Source: an uncultured cyanobacterium
GTDB taxonomy: Bacteria; Cyanobacteriota; Cyanobacteriia; Cyanobacteriales; Nostocaceae
Direction: 5' to 3'
Length of the DNA: 64,000 nucleotides
Assembly (NCBI GenBank): GCA_903848645.1
Contig: CAINGU010000082.1
Coordinates: forward strand, 1-64,000
Under the pieces are notes generated by a model that saw nothing but the letters and a program-made list of their open reading frames with translations, did not search any database and was not told where the DNA came from. Numbering within the stretch: position 1 is the stretch's first letter; each line of letters starts with the position of its first letter. Below, piece after piece: positions 4,918-20,235 of the stretch. The position numbers and the translations under genes were made by a program.

Positions 4918-6759
4918 ATGCAACAATCTTCAAGCTTACCAGAACGGAACTCACAAATAGACGGCAAGCCACTTTTGTCAACAATTGAACATTTGCGGTA
5001 TCAGTTGTGGTTAGAAACCACCCTGAATAAGTTGCAGATTCGCCTCAAAGATTATCTAATTTCTGTGGCTACTACGAACTCATCAGGAATGGCTACAGAA
5101 GCGGAAATTTTGCAAATTGTTGTCAATGAACTTCATAAAGGTTTAAGTGATAGTCTCATTGGGTTTACCCAGTGTATCGTAGGCATTGCCCTATTTGAAC
5201 CACAGCAAACAGTTGGTCAAATCTCCTATATTTCCCATTCACCATCATTGACTGCCCCCAATTTAGAGGTAATACCCCAAACTGGGAAAAAGCTAACTCT
5301 GAGGGTCAATAAATCTATTAAGCTTAAAGACTTAGAGCAAATGGAGACTCAAGAATACCAAAGTGCTTGGTATTTATTTGAGAATACTAGGGGTCTAAAA
5401 GGATGGTTGATGATCAATACAAGCACTTTTTCATTTGATTGCAGGTTATTCAAGGATGCCTTTGCTCCTCTAAAATTGCAATTGATTACAAAAACTGTGG
5501 AAAATTGTCGTACAGCTTTAGTACAACTTCGACAAATACAATCTTGGCAGCAAAATTATCAACAGTTAGCTAATTTTAATCAGGAACTAGAACGCACGAA
5601 TCAACTCAAAAATCAGTTTTTGGCTAATACCAGTCACGAAATCCGCACACCCCTGAGTTCGATTATTGGTTTTACTCATTTACTATTAGCACAAGGTTAC
5701 GAACCTGACAAAGCCCGTCATCAAGAGTATTTACATATTATCCAATCTAGCGGTAAGCATTTACTCGGACTGATTAATGATATTTTGGATCTCTCAAAAA
5801 TTGAAGCTAATCAGCTAGAAGTACAATGGGAAATTGTTGATGTTTCTACTTTGTGCCGGAATGTTTTAGCTTTAGTGAAAGAGAAAGCAGCGAATAAAGG
5901 TTTAACACTGCGTTTAGAAATGGAGGCTGATGTTAAAAATTTGATAGCTGATCCTTTGCGACTCAAGCAAATGCTATTGAATTTACTGTTCAATGCAGTT
6001 AAGTTTACTACAAAAGGTACTGTGGGTTTACAGGTTGCTAATCAAGACGGATTTTTGCGGTTTACAATTTGGGATACTGGTACAGGTATCTCTGGTGAAG
6101 ATCAATCTCGACTATTTCAACCCTATAGTCAAGTAGTTAACCCCGCAGCCGGTCGTAATGAGGGGACGGGTTTGGGGTTAGTAGTGACTCAAAAATTGGC
6201 AGAAATTCACGGTGGTTTTTTGGAGTTAGAATCTGTAGTTAATCAAGGTTCTCGTTTTAGTATCCTACTACCAATTAAACCGACAGGGAAAGTTTTAGCA
6301 GCGATAGAAACAACAGCAGAATATGATTTAGAAGTAGTAACTCATCCTTGTGCTGATGACAATATGACTTCCCCACCGGTAATTTTGCTGGTAGAAGATG
6401 ATTTACCAAATGGGGAATTAATGGGAATTTATTTCAAAAGATTGGGATATCAAGTAAATTGGGTGAAAAATGGCGCGGAAATGTTGACTAATCTCCAAGA
6501 AATAGAACCAACAGTTATTTTAATGGATGTAAGTTTACCTGATGCCAATGGTTTAAACTTAGTGCAGCAATTACGAGAAAACCCCCAGTATCAGCACATA
6601 CCGATTATTGCTCAAACAGCAATGGCAATGAAAGGGGATAGAGAAACTTGTCTAGCTGCTGGTGTCAATGAGTATATTTCCAAACCGATTGATTTACAAC
6701 TTTTAGCCAGTCTGATAGCTAAATATAGTCAAATTATTTGTCATAATCAGGATTTATAG
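4918..6759 (+). CDS. Hybrid sensor histidine kinase (HisKA-HATPase-REC)
   Basis: 613 residues from ATG 4918; a TTG two codons upstream (4912) is also possible and neither has a strong Shine-Dalgarno. Residues 1-195 are a poorly recognisable, perhaps GAF-like, sensor region; a coiled coil (about 200-230) precedes the H box with His240 (NTSHEIRTPLSSIIGF). The ATPase domain shows NLLFNAVKF, DTGTGI and GTGLGLV. A C-terminal receiver (about 490-610) has phosphoacceptor Asp537 (VILMDVSLPD) and the lysine in YISKPID. No transmembrane segments: cytoplasmic. It stands alone between natD and larE and its signal is unknown. Confidence 0.9.
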   Translation: MQQSSSLPERNSQIDGKPLLSTIEHLRYQLWLETTLNKLQIRLKDYLISVATTNSSGMATEAEILQIVVNELHKGLSDSLIGFTQCIVGIALFEPQQTVGQISYISHSPSLTAPNLEVIPQTGKKLTLRVNKSIKLKDLEQMETQEYQSAWYLFENTRGLKGWLMINTSTFSFDCRLFKDAFAPLKLQLITKTVENCRTALVQLRQIQSWQQNYQQLANFNQELERTNQLKNQFLANTSHEIRTPLSSIIGFTHLLLAQGYEPDKARHQEYLHIIQSSGKHLLGLINDILDLSKIEANQLEVQWEIVDVSTLCRNVLALVKEKAANKGLTLRLEMEADVKNLIADPLRLKQMLLNLLFNAVKFTTKGTVGLQVANQDGFLRFTIWDTGTGISGEDQSRLFQPYSQVVNPAAGRNEGTGLGLVVTQKLAEIHGGFLELESVVNQGSRFSILLPIKPTGKVLAAIETTAEYDLEVVTHPCADDNMTSPPVILLVEDDLPNGELMGIYFKRLGYQVNWVKNGAEMLTNLQEIEPTVILMDVSLPDANGLNLVQQLRENPQYQHIPIIAQTAMAMKGDRETCLAAGVNEYISKPIDLQLLASLIAKYSQIICHNQDL

Positions 6760-6941
6760 GATTTAGGGATTTACAAGGTGATTTTTTGGATGATTTGTCT
6801 GTGATTTGTTAATTTGATTAGTTACTTCTAAATATCCTGAAAATCCTTTAATCCTGAACATCCTGATTCTGACAATATTTCTTGTATGGGACCGAGGATG
6901 ACTAAAATAGAAGTGGTTAGGCGTTATGGGGTTTTAGTCGG

Positions 6942-7766
6942 ATGAGTTGGACAGAAAAACTAGAGCAGTTAAAAGAGTTATTTACAGAAATGGATCAGGC
7001 TTTAATAGCCTATTCTGGGGGAGTTGATAGTACATTAGTTGCTAAAATTGCTTATGATGTGTTAGGCGATCGCGCATTAGCTGTAACTGCGGTTTCTCCT
7101 TCTCTATTACCAGAAGAATTAGAAGACGCGAAAATTCAAGCCGCAACTATCGGAATTTCTCATAAAGTTGTCCAAACACAAGAAATGGACAATCCCAATT
7201 ACACATCTAATCCCGTAAATCGGTGTTATTTTTGCAAAAGTGAATTACACGATACCCTCAAACCTTTGGCTTTAGAGTTGGGTTATCCTTATGTAGTGGA
7301 CGGTGTAAATGCAGACGATTTACATGATTATCGTCCCGGAATCCAAGCTGCAAAAGAAAGAGGTGCGCGATCGCCTTTAGCAGAAATCGGTGTGACTAAA
7401 GCCGAAGTTAGGCAAATTTCCCAACAACTGGGTTTACCTTGGTGGGATAAACCTGCTCAACCCTGTTTAAGTTCTCGCTTTCCCTACGGTGAAGAAATTA
7501 CCATAGCCAAATTACAGCGAGTAGGAAGAGCCGAAATTTATTTACGAACCCTGGGTTGGCAAAATTTACGAGTCCGTTCCGAAGGTGATACAGCTAGAAT
7601 TGAATTATCACCAGATAAAATTAAAGATTTTGTGATGACTACAGATTTACCAACTCTAGTATCCGCATTTCAAAACTGGGGATTTATCTATGTCACCTTG
7701 GATTTAGAAGGTTATCGTAGTGGTAAATTAAATCAAGTTTTACCTGAAGTCGCTTTAACAAACTAG
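6942..7766 (+). CDS. larE: ATP-dependent sacrificial sulfur transferase LarE
   Basis: 274 residues. PP-loop ATP pyrophosphatase with SGGVDST near residue 26 and the family hallmark QPCLSSRFPYG, in which Cys175 corresponds to the sulfur-donating cysteine of Lactobacillus LarE. LarE adenylates the pyridinium biscarboxylate mononucleotide and gives up its own cysteine sulfur to build the nickel-pincer nucleotide. Also conserved are CYFCK and GVNADD. No larB, larC or nickel transporter gene lies nearby, so the enzyme is an orphan here and could serve another sulfur-transfer reaction. Single-gene unit. Confidence 0.88.
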   Translation: MSWTEKLEQLKELFTEMDQALIAYSGGVDSTLVAKIAYDVLGDRALAVTAVSPSLLPEELEDAKIQAATIGISHKVVQTQEMDNPNYTSNPVNRCYFCKSELHDTLKPLALELGYPYVVDGVNADDLHDYRPGIQAAKERGARSPLAEIGVTKAEVRQISQQLGLPWWDKPAQPCLSSRFPYGEEITIAKLQRVGRAEIYLRTLGWQNLRVRSEGDTARIELSPDKIKDFVMTTDLPTLVSAFQNWGFIYVTLDLEGYRSGKLNQVLPEVALTN

Positions 7767-7827
7767 GGCGTATTCTTCTAAACTTGATGATTGTCAACTT
7801 TAGAACAATTTACAGCACTTCCCGGTG

Positions 7828-7946
7828 TTATGAGGTACATATCTAGCGGGCAAGACTTCTACTGAGCTTGTCGATAGCGCAGCGTGGCGTTAGCCATAGT
7901 ATGCCCGCACTACAAGAGTTTCATGATTCAACTTTGTACCTCATAA
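7828..7946. mobile_element. MITE-like element, copy 1 (119 bp)
   Basis: Bounded by perfect 12-bp inverted termini TTATGAGGTACA and TGTACCTCATAA, with a second nested pair AGCGGGCA/TGCCCGC(A). The interior holds the common block GATAGCGCAGCGTGGCGTTAGCCATAGT. Outside, TACAGC at 7811 and GCTGTA at 7959 form a further loose inverted pair. No ORF. A near-identical copy in the same orientation lies at 25786-25904. I infer a non-autonomous hairpin element. Confidence 0.8.
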
Positions 7947-8081
7947 GAGCGGAAACCGCTGTATTACATAATGGCATGAATAACTATAAACAAAAAAAAG
8001 CTGAAAAAGGCAAATAACTATTTATTAGTAATTATGAAATTATCCAAAATCTAGAAAAATCTCAACTTATAGCTTAAACCT

Positions 8082-8513
8082 TTACCCCAACCTTGGACGT
8101 ATTCCATAATGGCGATATTGCCAATAATCCCGCAAAATCCGGTCATGATCAAAGCATAAATTACCAGGAACACACCAAGGCTCAAAAATACCCACATTCT
8201 TAGCATCATCACCAGCAAAAGGTTCACCTATCGCTGTTGCTAAAAATACAATGCTAATCGTATGCTGACGGGGATCACGACGAGGATCAGAATAAACTAA
8301 AAACTGTTCTATTAACTCTACTTTTAAGCTTATTTCTTCCTCTGCTTCCCTGATTGCTGCCTTTTCTACAGGTTCACCGTAATCCACAAAACCACCGGGT
8401 AGCGCCCAACCTAAAGGTTGATTATGTCTTTCAATCAGGATAATTGGACGGTGAGGTCTATCAATTAATTCAATAATGATATCAACAGTGGGAGCAGGAT
8501 TTCTATAAGTCAT
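8082..8513 (-). CDS. NUDIX hydrolase
   Basis: 143 residues from the ATG at 8513 ([18 protein letters not shown]), the start chosen because it begins the NUDIX fold; the frame remains open to 8609 and a 175-residue form is possible. The NUDIX box reads [20 protein letters not shown] followed by EIS: the G-x5-E-x7-RE-x2-EE core is intact, with Ser in place of the usual Gly after EEI. Such enzymes hydrolyse nucleoside diphosphates linked to another moiety; the PLGWALPGG context resembles ADP-ribose or 8-oxo-dGTP type members, but the substrate is not determined. Divergent from malQ. Confidence 0.85.
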
Positions 8514-8635
8514 ACAATTTAAAATTGTGAATTGTTTACGTATCAGCTTATTCTGACCATACCATGATAAATTCAAGGCGATAGCTTCTGGAGTCCGAAG
8601 GTATCCCATTCTGTTAGTTATATTTTAGGTTAAGT

Positions 8636-10144
8636 ATGCCTTTTCCTCGCTCAAGTGGTATTTTACTGCATCCTAGTTCTTTTCCCAGTCGGTTTGGTAT
8701 TGGGGATTTAGGTTTAGAAGCTTATCGTTTTATTGATTTTCTCAAACATAGTCACCAGCAATATTGGCAAGTTTTACCTCTTGGACCGACTGGTTACGGT
8801 AATTCTCCCTATATGTGCTACTCCGCAATGGCGGGAAATTACTTTTTGATTAGTCCAGACAAGTTACTAGAGGAGGGTTTGTTAACTCAAGCAGATTTAA
8901 CTGATTTACCAGATTTTCCCGTAGATAAGGTAGATTTTGCCGAAGTTATCTCTGTTAAGGTCAATCTCCTGATTAAAGCTTGCGAGGATTTTAAAACTAA
9001 AGCAAATTCAACTCAAAAACAAGCTTTTGCTCAGTTTTGTACTGATAAAAGCTATTGGTTGGATAATTATGCCCTATTTATGGCACTTAAAGATCACCAA
9101 AATGGTAAAAGCTGGCATAATTGGCAACCAGAATTAGCCAAGCGTGAACCAGCAGCTTTAGCCAAAATTGCACAAGATTTAGCGGAGGAGATTTTTTATT
9201 ACAAGTTTGTCCAATATGAGTTTTTCCGGCAGTGGACAGAACTTAAAAACTATGCTAATGAGAACGGTATAGATATTATTGGTGATATCCCCATTTATGT
9301 AGCTCATGATAGTGCTGATGTGTGGGCTAATCCTGATATTTTCGCTTTAGATGAGGAAACGGGAGAAGTAGCTTTAATGGCGGGAGTACCACCAGATTAC
9401 TTTAGCACCACCGGTCAATTATGGGGAAATCCGGTTTATAACTGGGAAGAATTGCAAAAGCAAGACTTTAAATGGTGGATATTACGCTTTGAGGCGATGC
9501 TGGATTATGTAGATATAATTCGCATTGATCACTTCCGGGGTTTTGAGGCTTATTGGGCTGTACCCCAAGGGGAAACAACCGCTATGAATGGCGAATGGAT
9601 TGAAGCCCCTGGTGTAGCCTTGTTTGAAACCATTAGAAAGCAATTAGGTAAGTTACCAGTTTTAGCGGAAGATTTGGGAATTATTACCCCAGAAGTGGAA
9701 GCACTGCGAGATCAGTTTGAGTTTCCAGGAATGAAGGTACTACAGTTTGCTTTTGGTTCTGATCCCGGTAATCCTTTTTTACCCTTTAATTACAGTCGCA
9801 ATGCTGTAGTTTATACTGGTACTCACGACAATGATACGACTTTAGGCTGGTTTAATACTGCGAATGATTACGAAAAGCAAAATTTATTGTTGTATTTGGG
9901 TTGTATCAGTCCTGATGGGATAAACTGGGATTTAATTAGATTAGCTTTAAGTTCTATCGCTAACCAAGCGATCATACCTTTGCAGGATGTATTAGGTTTA
10001 GGAACTGATGCACGCATGAATTTTCCGAGTACGGCGGAGGGAAATTGGGAATGGCGTTACCAAGCAGGTGTATTAACGCAACAATTAAGCGATCGCTTAA
10101 AAACTCTCACCCTCCGCTGTGGACGCGCTCCTAAACAACCATAA
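8636..10144 (+). CDS. malQ: 4-alpha-glucanotransferase (amylomaltase)
   Basis: 502 residues, standard length for GH77. Transfers alpha-1,4-glucan segments between maltooligosaccharides in glycogen turnover. N-terminal signature PRSSGILLHPSSFPSRFGIG; substrate loop QVLPLGPTGYGNSPY; nucleophile Asp in IIRIDHFRGF; acid/base Glu in VLAEDLGIITPEV; third acid in GTHDNDTT. All are intact. Stands alone, divergent from the NUDIX gene. Confidence 0.96.
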   Translation: MPFPRSSGILLHPSSFPSRFGIGDLGLEAYRFIDFLKHSHQQYWQVLPLGPTGYGNSPYMCYSAMAGNYFLISPDKLLEEGLLTQADLTDLPDFPVDKVDFAEVISVKVNLLIKACEDFKTKANSTQKQAFAQFCTDKSYWLDNYALFMALKDHQNGKSWHNWQPELAKREPAALAKIAQDLAEEIFYYKFVQYEFFRQWTELKNYANENGIDIIGDIPIYVAHDSADVWANPDIFALDEETGEVALMAGVPPDYFSTTGQLWGNPVYNWEELQKQDFKWWILRFEAMLDYVDIIRIDHFRGFEAYWAVPQGETTAMNGEWIEAPGVALFETIRKQLGKLPVLAEDLGIITPEVEALRDQFEFPGMKVLQFAFGSDPGNPFLPFNYSRNAVVYTGTHDNDTTLGWFNTANDYEKQNLLLYLGCISPDGINWDLIRLALSSIANQAIIPLQDVLGLGTDARMNFPSTAEGNWEWRYQAGVLTQQLSDRLKTLTLRCGRAPKQP

Positions 10145-17663: not shown

Positions 17664-19709
17664 ATGAAAAAACATTTATTATCACCGCAAAAATATATAA
17701 ATAATGAAGAACAACGACATACATCTTCAGGTAATCTGATGCAACAAGAGGAAGAAATTACTCATGTATTAGCACAAAGGATTAATACAATCATTGCTAA
17801 TAGTCCGGTAAGATCCTCCATGCTGTCAGATATTGCTCATGCAGTAGGAGCAGCATTTAACATAGATTGTTGCTTGGTTACGGTAGTAAGTGATATATCT
17901 GATGAAATAATAACTGCTCATTGGTGTAGTGAACAATTCCTGGGTTTATCCCCAACTAAAGAGATGTTATCTCAGGAAGAATTGCTGTTTGAGTTACCAG
18001 TGGTGCAATGTGCAGATAAAAAATTGACTATTGAAGATATTTCTATTATTCAAAAAACCTTAGTCAGTGGTTGGCAAGATATACCACTAGCAATGAAGGC
18101 TATTTTGGCAATTTCTACCAGATTTGCTGGTCATAGTAATGGTGTAATTAGTTTGATTAAATTCCGATCTTATCAATGGCAAGAATCAGAAATCAGAGGA
18201 TTACAATCAATAGAATCATGTTGTGCGATCGCCTTTGCTCAAGTTGCACAATCACAGATTTTAGCTACTCAAAAACAACATCTACAAAAAGCTAATCAGC
18301 ATCAAAGTTTAATTCAAAAATTAACTATCCTCAATCGTAGTAACTTGGAGTTGAATCAAATGCTCCAGTTAGTGATTAATTCTACTGCTGAGGCTTTAGA
18401 AGTAGATCGGGGTTTACTGATTTTATTCAAATACGCAGATCCACTATTTAGAAAACTTCCCAAGCAACAAATACCCAATGTGAAAGCAACTTTAGTTGGA
18501 GCATGGACTAAGGACACATATACTAATGCCGTGGGTAAATTAGATAACTTAGATCAGTCTTTCTGGGTATCTGATTGTAGCTTATGTCAGCGTCTATTTA
18601 CAGAACCAGGAAAACCAATCATGACTAATAATTGTGAAGAGAAAAATACTAGTAACCCTGCGGCTTTGTTTGCTATTGAACAGTTTCCTAACACGCTATT
18701 AATGCCATTAGAAAGCCAAGGTAAGGTTTTAGGATTTGTAGTTTTACAACAAGCAACTACTCGCAATTGGGAAACAACAGATTTGAATTTGATAGAAATG
18801 CTTTGCGCTCAATTAAGTGATGCTGTCATTCAGTCCCAAACATTGCGACAAGTGCAAACTTTAGTAGATGAACGAACTGAACAACTCAAGCGCAGTTTAG
18901 AAGTGCAAGCAAAATTGTATGAAAGAACAAGACAATATGTAGAGCAACTACAACAACTTAATGAACTTAAAGATGAATTTCTTAGCAATATCAGCGATCG
19001 CTTGCGCTACCCTCTGACAAATATGCTCATGTCTATTCGTAATTTACGTTTACCAGGAATATCTCCAGAACGTCAAGACCGATATTTAAATATCTTAGAG
19101 TCAGAATGTACTAAAGAAATTAACTTAATTAATGATTTATTAACCCTACAAAAACTAGAATCTCATCAAGAACCACCACAATTTGAAAGCCTAGATTTAA
19201 ATACTAAAATTCAAGACCTCTTCACCTCTTTTGATCAACAACTCACAGATAAAAAATTAAGTATTTCGGTAGAATTACCCAATCAAACTTTAAAATTGCA
19301 AACAGAAGTAGAGAGTTTCGACCGCATCATCCAGGAACTGTTAACTAATGTCTGTAAATACTCTGAGCATGATACAACTGTCCGCGTACAAGTCACTCAT
19401 CAAGTTGCAGATGAACTTGATCAAGTTATTATTAAGGTAACAAATACTGGACGGGGAATATCTGAAGAAGAAGCGGCTTATATCTTCGATAAATTCCGTC
19501 GTGGTAAAGGCCGCTGGATTCCCGGAACTGGCTTAGGACTTGCTTTAGTTAAGTCTTTAGTGCAGCATCTCAATGGAGCGATCGCTGTTGAGAGTATTCC
19601 TATTGCTAATTCCCAACTGTGCGAAATTAGTTTTACACTCACTCTCCCCCTATCTTCTCTACCAATTAACTCATATTCACAAAAAGTGACTACAGAAAAT
19701 GGGAATTGA
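17664..19709 (+). CDS. GAF-domain sensor kinase with altered H box (putative pseudokinase)
   Basis: 681 residues, cytoplasmic. Residues 30-215 and 220-400 look like two GAF domains; a coiled coil (405-435) leads to a HisKA-like helix pair and a C-terminal ATPase with LLTNVCKYS, NTGRGI and GTGLGLALVKS. The H box, normally SHELRTPL, reads SDRLRYPL: the phosphoacceptor His is Asp445 and the next Glu is Arg. The codons responsible form an exact HIP1 octamer GCGATCGC at 18994-19001. The nucleotide-binding boxes are intact, so it may bind ATP but not autophosphorylate at the usual site. A shorter start at Met26 is possible. It overlaps the next gene by 11 bases, indicating translational coupling. 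Confidence 0.85.
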   Translation: MKKHLLSPQKYINNEEQRHTSSGNLMQQEEEITHVLAQRINTIIANSPVRSSMLSDIAHAVGAAFNIDCCLVTVVSDISDEIITAHWCSEQFLGLSPTKEMLSQEELLFELPVVQCADKKLTIEDISIIQKTLVSGWQDIPLAMKAILAISTRFAGHSNGVISLIKFRSYQWQESEIRGLQSIESCCAIAFAQVAQSQILATQKQHLQKANQHQSLIQKLTILNRSNLELNQMLQLVINSTAEALEVDRGLLILFKYADPLFRKLPKQQIPNVKATLVGAWTKDTYTNAVGKLDNLDQSFWVSDCSLCQRLFTEPGKPIMTNNCEEKNTSNPAALFAIEQFPNTLLMPLESQGKVLGFVVLQQATTRNWETTDLNLIEMLCAQLSDAVIQSQTLRQVQTLVDERTEQLKRSLEVQAKLYERTRQYVEQLQQLNELKDEFLSNISDRLRYPLTNMLMSIRNLRLPGISPERQDRYLNILESECTKEINLINDLLTLQKLESHQEPPQFESLDLNTKIQDLFTSFDQQLTDKKLSISVELPNQTLKLQTEVESFDRIIQELLTNVCKYSEHDTTVRVQVTHQVADELDQVIIKVTNTGRGISEEEAAYIFDKFRRGKGRWIPGTGLGLALVKSLVQHLNGAIAVESIPIANSQLCEISFTLTLPLSSLPINSYSQKVTTENGN

Positions 19710-20235
19710 TTCTTCTACCTCAGATCATGACACCTTCGCCCAAGTAGCTATCCAAGTTGATAAATTATCAGAGAGACAGCGCCAAATCAGTGCCAAAATC
19801 CAAATTCCTCAACCAGTAGAAAAAGTTTGGCAGATTCTCACCGATTATGAATCATTACCTGACTTTATCCCCAATCTCGCCAAAAGCTCTCTTCTCGAAC
19901 ATCCCAATGGTGGGATTAGACTAGAACAAATTGGTTCTCAGAGTTTACTCAACTTTAAATTCTGTGCGCGTGTAGTTTTAGATTTAGAAGAGTTATTCCC
20001 CACACTAATCCAATTCAATATGGTAGAAGGCGATTTTAAAGGCTTTTCTGGTAGTTGGTGCTTAGAGCCTTATACCCTCAGTGAACAACAAGGAACAACT
20101 CTATGCTACACAATCCAAATTTGGCCTAAACTAACTATGCCTATATCAATTATCGAACGTCGTCTCAGCAAAGACCTACAAACCAATCTCTTAGCAATTC
20201 GTCAGCGGGCTGTAGCTGTAGAAGTCATAGTCTAA
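19699..20235 (+). CDS. SRPBCC (START/Coq10-like) family protein
   Basis: 178 residues. Residues 30-170 follow the polyketide cyclase/START pattern: an opening strand QISAKIQIPQPVEKVWQILT, then DYESLPDFIPNLAKSS, central strands, and a long C-terminal helix (ERRLSKDLQTNLLAIRQRAV). The fold makes a hydrophobic pocket for lipids, quinones or pigments; the ligand is unknown. Its ATG lies inside the end of the kinase gene, an 11-base overlap, so the two are probably cotranslated; a ligand-sensing link to that kinase is speculative. Confidence 0.8.
   Translation: MGIDSSTSDHDTFAQVAIQVDKLSERQRQISAKIQIPQPVEKVWQILTDYESLPDFIPNLAKSSLLEHPNGGIRLEQIGSQSLLNFKFCARVVLDLEELFPTLIQFNMVEGDFKGFSGSWCLEPYTLSEQQGTTLCYTIQIWPKLTMPISIIERRLSKDLQTNLLAIRQRAVAVEVIV

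Follow-up and report, generated by a model that had tools for sequence, protein, structure and literature searches.

The window, a 64,000-nt stretch of DNA from an uncultured cyanobacterium of the Nostocaceae, encodes a GAF-HisKA-HATPase_c sensor kinase homologue in which Asp takes the place of the phosphoacceptor His. Judged from its sequence and those of its relatives, the protein is probably a maintained pseudo-histidine kinase that binds ATP and acts through a partner in the manner of DivL. The loss of His is older than the radiation of the family to which the protein belongs (f1), and it is convergent. A preliminary description of this DNA had proposed either an ATP-binding pseudokinase or a kinase using another residue, brought about by the HIP1 octamer that lies on the same codons. 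The former is our leading reading, with His lost and the ATP site kept; the role given to HIP1 as the cause did not hold up.

The GAF, HisKA and HATPase_c domains each exceed the curated Pfam cut-off (Table 1). A specific NCBIfam assignment was not obtained, with the best 25 of 68 matches all below the cut-offs. The H box in the window's ORF reads SDRLRYPL, compared with the canonical HisKA box S-H-E-L-R-T-P-L, exactly as the preliminary description had it from the ORF translation. Specifically, S444-D445-R446 is encoded by AGC GAT CGC at 18993-19001, and D445 occupies the place where His is expected. Two further changes, absent from that description, are R446 at +1, where functional HisKA domains have an acidic residue, and Y449 at +4, where they have Thr or Asn. 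In HisKA kinases, the +1 Glu is the catalytic base and the +4 Thr is the phosphatase residue. The HisKA domain is combined with a HATPase_c domain that has N, G1, F and G2 boxes. The statement that the ATP-binding boxes are intact is accurate for N562, F608, F611 and G621/G623/G625, but not for the G1 box, NTGRG, which has Asn for Asp. Because the G1 box has this Asn in 105/107 rows with His as well, the substitution is unconnected with the loss of His and is ruled out as a second lesion.

Table 1. Coordinates of the features in the window
Feature	Position	Strand	Basis
Small upstream gene, 111 aa	16862..17197	+	CopG label by eye only
GAF-HisKA-HATPase_c sensor kinase homologue without phosphoacceptor His, 681 aa	17664..19709	+	ORF, Pfam
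Second HIP1 within the kinase gene, A-I-A frame	18225..18232	.	
GAF domain, residues 230-387	18351..18824	+	Pfam
HisKA / DHp domain, residues 436-500	18969..19163	+	Pfam, helices in AlphaFold model
Altered H box SDRLRYPL, residues 444-451 (D445 for His, R446 for Glu, Y449 for Thr)	18993..19016	+	
HIP1 octamer GCGATCGC, palindrome, spells S-D-R	18994..19001	.	
HATPase_c / CA domain, residues 551-663	19314..19652	+	Pfam
N box, N562	19347-19349	+	
G1 box, NTGRG	19443-19457	+	
G2 box, GTGLGL	19524-19541	+	
Third HIP1 within the kinase gene, A-I-A frame	19578..19585	.	
SRPBCC / Polyketide_cyc gene, overlaps kinase 3' end by 11 bases	19699..20235	+	

An AlphaFold model of the protein (33 sequences) has a mean pLDDT of 70.3 and a pTM of 0.36. 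The model contains helices at residues 371-461 and 468-499, and D445 is predicted to fall in the first of these, the would-be first helix of the DHp domain, with a pLDDT of about 58 at residues 441-450 around it. The model backs the domain order only, and it suggests an additional N-terminal alpha/beta domain at about residues 50-190.

His is ancestral at this position, as given by the alignment of orthologues that the preliminary description had put forward as a check. Codon-by-codon reading shows His at the H box in 27/27 loci outside the order (L215-L242 minus L233, an in-order duplicate) and in 7/7 loci of the sister family f18 (L028 and L134-L139). The two families f1 and f18 join with support of 100/99, and the f18 clade itself has support of 93/76. 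Because the upstream and downstream neighbours are the same as those in the window in 7/7 f18 loci, the f18 gene is orthologous by position and by sequence. The His-bearing orthologues, in f18 and outside the order, have the same domain order by alignment and a canonical H-E-x-x-T box. The direction from His to Asp follows from the outside-order rows together with this intact box in the His forms; 2/17 outside-order rows group among those of the order, and the outgroup is not clean in this respect. Genomes with weak best matches only were counted as lacking an orthologue, which in one of the whole-protein searches applies to most of its 116 genomes.

In all loci read that have lost His, Asp has taken its place. 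Of the 102 loci in the order but outside f1, 79 have His, 23 have Asp and 0 have any other residue, and all 109 full-length f1 rows have Asp within S-D-R. These 109 rows were obtained after dropping three partials (L014, L027 and L048, all S-D-R); the 112 rows that include the partials represent 99 distinct coding sequences, since some genomes entered the set twice. The pattern scan (LKDEF[LVM]SN, SDRLR[YH]PLT) kept 80 of 252 loci, and its 80/80 S-D-R is biased by the pattern itself; an unbiased set of 32 f1 loci from whole-protein searches is also S-D-R throughout. Best matches in G225, G236, G241, G249, G260, G267, G280, G281, G294, G296, G297, G299 and G309 were listed but left out of the reading.

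On trees with the H box masked (115, 76 and 93 rows), the minimum number of His/Asp changes is five. The Asp lineages are f1; f33, which lies next to L155, a locus with His; L147 of f12; L169, next to L037, which also has His; and a clade made up of f17, f19, f28 and f14. Families f11 and f26 and one f29 row enter the fifth lineage only in the 115-row tree, with weak support. The L037-L169 pair is recovered in three trees (96, 98 and 100/97), and its position shifts among them. Constraining all Asp rows to a single clade lowers lnL by 277 (p-AU 2e-10), which rejects one ancient Asp paralogue followed by differential loss. That paralogue reading is also disfavoured by the next-best matches, which among the matches listed are far weaker than the best ones. 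The AU test was run on a quick tree of 76 of the 115 rows, after removal of 39 rows that were long branches, partial genes or near-duplicates, and the careful tree has 93 rows with outside-order relatives; neither tree includes L049, L187 or L190. L243-L248, chosen as paralogue outgroups, gave five His and no match in L245, and were left out of the trees.

By a rough estimate, in which the five events are taken as independent and selection as absent, the probability that 5/5 changes lead to Asp by chance is ~1e-4 to 1e-5, with seven residues one step away from the His codon. The +1 Glu and +4 Thr are mostly altered too where His is gone: Glu is kept at +1 in 3/23 and Thr at +4 in 9/23 of the Asp rows outside f1. 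The box begins S-D-E in L179 and L187 and Q-D-E in L190.

HIP1 is strongly over-represented in this DNA, as the preliminary description had it. The window contains 26 copies, compared with 0.17 expected from shuffles, three of which are in the kinase gene, and the 5.4-Mb assembly (G000) contains 1898 copies, compared with 0 for the reversed word. The exact octamer and the genome-wide enrichment match the HIP1 of cyanobacteria. The density in G000 is ~0.35 per kb, below that of ten HIP1-rich relatives (about 0.7-1.6 per kb; 5,328 to 10,018 sites each). Genus g54 has lost HIP1 near-completely. The six of its genomes that were counted, all in f1 (G068, G113, G137, G150, G171 and G178; 6.5-12.4 Mb), contain 31-147 sites each, and the reversed control word occurs 37 to 75 times in them. 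Four of the six are within a factor of 1.7 of the control, while G150 has 125 versus 75 and G137 has 147 versus 37, about fourfold.

The octamer coincides exactly with the S-D-R codons, which had led to the proposal that the spread of HIP1 overwrote the His and Glu codons and thereby killed or redirected the kinase. Loss of His does not track HIP1 across relatives, and this proposal is very unlikely. HIP1-poor g54 keeps S-D-R. A peptide-pattern scan of 192 f1 genomes found D-R spelled GAT AGA or GAT AGG in seven g54 genomes, and GAC AGA or GAT CGA in three g20 genomes, in both cases among the matches listed; four g54 and two g20 loci were confirmed as the same gene and retain the ATP motifs. 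In g20 and g21, the genomes are rich in HIP1, but the H box is without it. Outside f1, HIP1 is absent from the box in 22/23 Asp loci, and in three of the five Asp lineages it is absent from the box in every locus read. Orthologues without HIP1 that also lack His, which the preliminary description itself had named as evidence against its idea, therefore exist. Furthermore, the boxes with Asp before an unchanged Glu indicate that His can go before Glu, and the +4 Thr has changed too, although it lies outside the octamer. The exact coincidence, the almost frozen S, D and R codons of f1, the presence of HIP1 at the one remaining Asp locus (L169; f16, G233) and a box one base off HIP1 in L140 (AGC GAT CGG) are what the overwriting proposal would account for.

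We regard HIP1 instead as the likeliest spelling of S-D-R, and the coincidence as mostly a spelling effect. In flanking ORFs of 80 named loci (six-frame ORFs of at least 150 codons), S-D-R is written AGCGATCGC in 21/34 cases, which are mostly orthologous and not independent. The genome-wide HIP1 bias would have written an existing S-D-R as AGCGATCGC and would help to keep this spelling. Within f1, HIP1 is at the box in 106/109 full-length rows, the others being L022 (AGC GAC AGA), L026 (AGC GAT AGG) and L116 (AGT GAT CGC). The codons AGC, GAT and CGC occur in 108, 108 and 107 of the 109 rows, while the codons that follow vary synonymously, which suggests that the octamer is also held at the DNA level in f1.

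Four substitutions, three of them in the Glu codon, separate AGC CAT GAG from AGC GAT CGC. In the model of Elhai, as given in the part of PMC4390886 that was available, HIP1 arises from an existing CGATCG by the addition of the outer G and C, so D-R would precede HIP1. At most, HIP1 may have influenced the choice of Arg at +1. The AGC GAT CGC of L169, where HIP1 would have met the same codons a second time, fits such an influence on +1 after Asp had been acquired. HIP1 could also have arisen with the loss of His on the f1 stem, where intermediates are lacking. HIP1 here spells an amino-acid change that exists elsewhere without it, and the HIP1-poor genus provides a natural control.

The gene appears to be maintained by selection. 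N562, Asn594 and G596 of the G1 box, F608, F611 and G621/623/625 are retained in 109/109 f1 rows. These residues, from the N, G1, F and G2 boxes, are also present in 20-22 of the 23 Asp rows outside f1, the missing ones being alignment gaps, bar one Ser at 594. NG86 dN/dS is 0.10-0.19 in 13/13 f1 pairs (one pair with saturated dS). The mean frequency of the major residue is 0.954 for residues 436-455, compared with 0.813 for the whole protein; windows in the G2 region score above it. In whole-protein searches, 19/20 f1 genomes from genera other than that of the window carry the gene at near full length. Together, the dN/dS values, the conservation of the H box and these copies indicate that the gene is maintained. 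The DHp and CA domains are kept, and the replacement of His is conserved under purifying selection, as expected of a DivL-like pseudo-histidine kinase.

Plain decay, in which a redundant kinase loses function on the way to becoming a pseudogene, finds its support in the window's genus. Only 6/16 genomes of this genus, some of whose assemblies are fragmented, have a full-length match, three have a broken or partial one and seven have no orthologous match, so the gene is dispensable there. The values of dN/dS, the above-average conservation of the altered H box, the kept ATP-site residues, the same replacement residue in five lineages and the copies in f1 genomes beyond this genus all speak against decay, which we consider the most improbable of the readings. 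The broken or partial copies are L014 (G008), L027 (G009) and L048 (G005).

An acceptor that has moved is the other alternative to a partner-acting pseudokinase. Specifically, the CA domain might phosphorylate Tyr449, a His at +4 (one turn further along the helix), or Ser/Thr in a partner protein. Consistent with this, the ATP-site residues are kept, Y449 is present in 106/109 and Y474 in 109/109 f1 rows, and a +4 His is present in 6/23 other Asp rows and 3/109 f1 rows (two distinct genes) and in 0/107 His rows. The literature proposes an acceptor of this kind for plant CSK (PMC4751278, available in part). Against it, the +4 position varies (Y, H, N, T, S, L, and C in the partial L027) as if relaxed, and the +1 Glu is mostly lost. 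For a nearby His as the acceptor, which the preliminary description had named as further evidence against its idea, no conserved candidate emerges: within residues 395-529 of the f1 rows, no His is conserved above 90%, and the commonest is at position 419 (71/109). On balance a moved acceptor is unlikely, and in some lineages it deserves serious consideration. The loci in which a His stands at +4, a single turn of the helix beyond the original position, are L020, L025, L042, L049, L147, L169, L179 and L190; their boxes read SDxL[RK]HPL or QDELKHPL.

For the preferred pseudo-histidine kinase, we propose the following mechanism. The protein would dimerise through its DHp domain and, from its motifs, would bind ATP, while classical autophosphorylation on His would be impossible. 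It would signal by binding a partner, either a response regulator or another kinase, and the GAF region would set its conformation, by analogy with the PAS domains of DivL. No response regulator is present among the six neighbouring proteins scanned with Pfam, two of which have no Pfam match.

That Asp recurs suggests a benefit from a permanent negative charge at the phospho-site. A more specific version, to which we give tentative and minor credence, is that Asp is a permanent mimic of phospho-histidine, and that the protein is an ATP-gated, GAF-controlled partner that would look constitutively 'phosphorylated' to a response regulator or to a sister kinase.

DivL and CSK are the known systems nearest to this protein. 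DivL has Tyr for His and shows neither kinase nor phosphatase activity; it forms dimers and binds DivK~P (PMC4211667, available in part). As in the f1 protein, the DHp and CA fold is kept in DivL, His is replaced, and the replacement is widely conserved among orthologues. The two differ in the replacing residue (Tyr versus Asp), in the sensor domains (PAS versus GAF) and in that DivL is alphaproteobacterial (Caulobacter) and has DivK as its partner. In a sequence search of solved structures, DivL (4q20) was matched with an E-value of 1.5e-14 and an ordinary kinase (7z8n) with 2.9e-25, and several ordinary kinases scored better than DivL.

CSK and Hik2, compared here by their descriptions in papers, are soluble GAF-DHp-CA kinases of cyanobacterial descent, like the kinase homologue in the window. 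The His of CSK is replaced by Tyr in green algae and by Glu in moss and higher plants (PMC2677595, available in part), whereas Hik2, a homologue of CSK, still phosphorylates on His (PMC4751278, in its available part). Thus His was replaced more than once in CSK, as in the present family, but by Tyr or Glu rather than by Asp, and the replacement by Asp is in free-living cyanobacteria and in at least five lineages. By these analogies, CSK would be the closest evolutionary parallel and DivL the closest functional model.

In the parts of the papers available, DivL and CSK are single cases, whereas here at least five separate His-to-Asp events lie beside His-bearing sisters, one of them at the same chromosomal locus as the His form (f1 versus f18). 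The family therefore lends itself to comparisons that ask what role is left to a histidine kinase without phosphorylation, and whether selection favours Asp as a mimic of the phosphorylated state. No report of the loss of His in this family was found among the open-access listings and abstracts screened, and the word pseudokinase has 0 occurrences in the available part of PMC13421787.

The SRPBCC gene that overlaps the 3' end of the kinase gene is near at least 16/27 outside-order loci and at least 14/102 in-order loci outside f1, as counted in short flanks. The pair of kinase and SRPBCC genes is old, and its link is independent of the loss of His, because it is found at His-bearing and outside-order loci. 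Loci with the pair include L028, L134-L139, L161, L169, L189, L215-L217, L221 and L223-L225. The small upstream gene has no Pfam or NCBIfam match, and is syntenic in f1 and in the His-bearing f18. Family f1 corresponds to the Nostocaceae in the broad sense: 13 f1 coding sequences are identical to named ones, including those of Anabaena sp. UHCC 0187 (L002 = L050) and Fischerella thermalis (L017 = L119). Among the matches listed, the closest named relative is Anabaena sp. UHCC 0187, at 89%.
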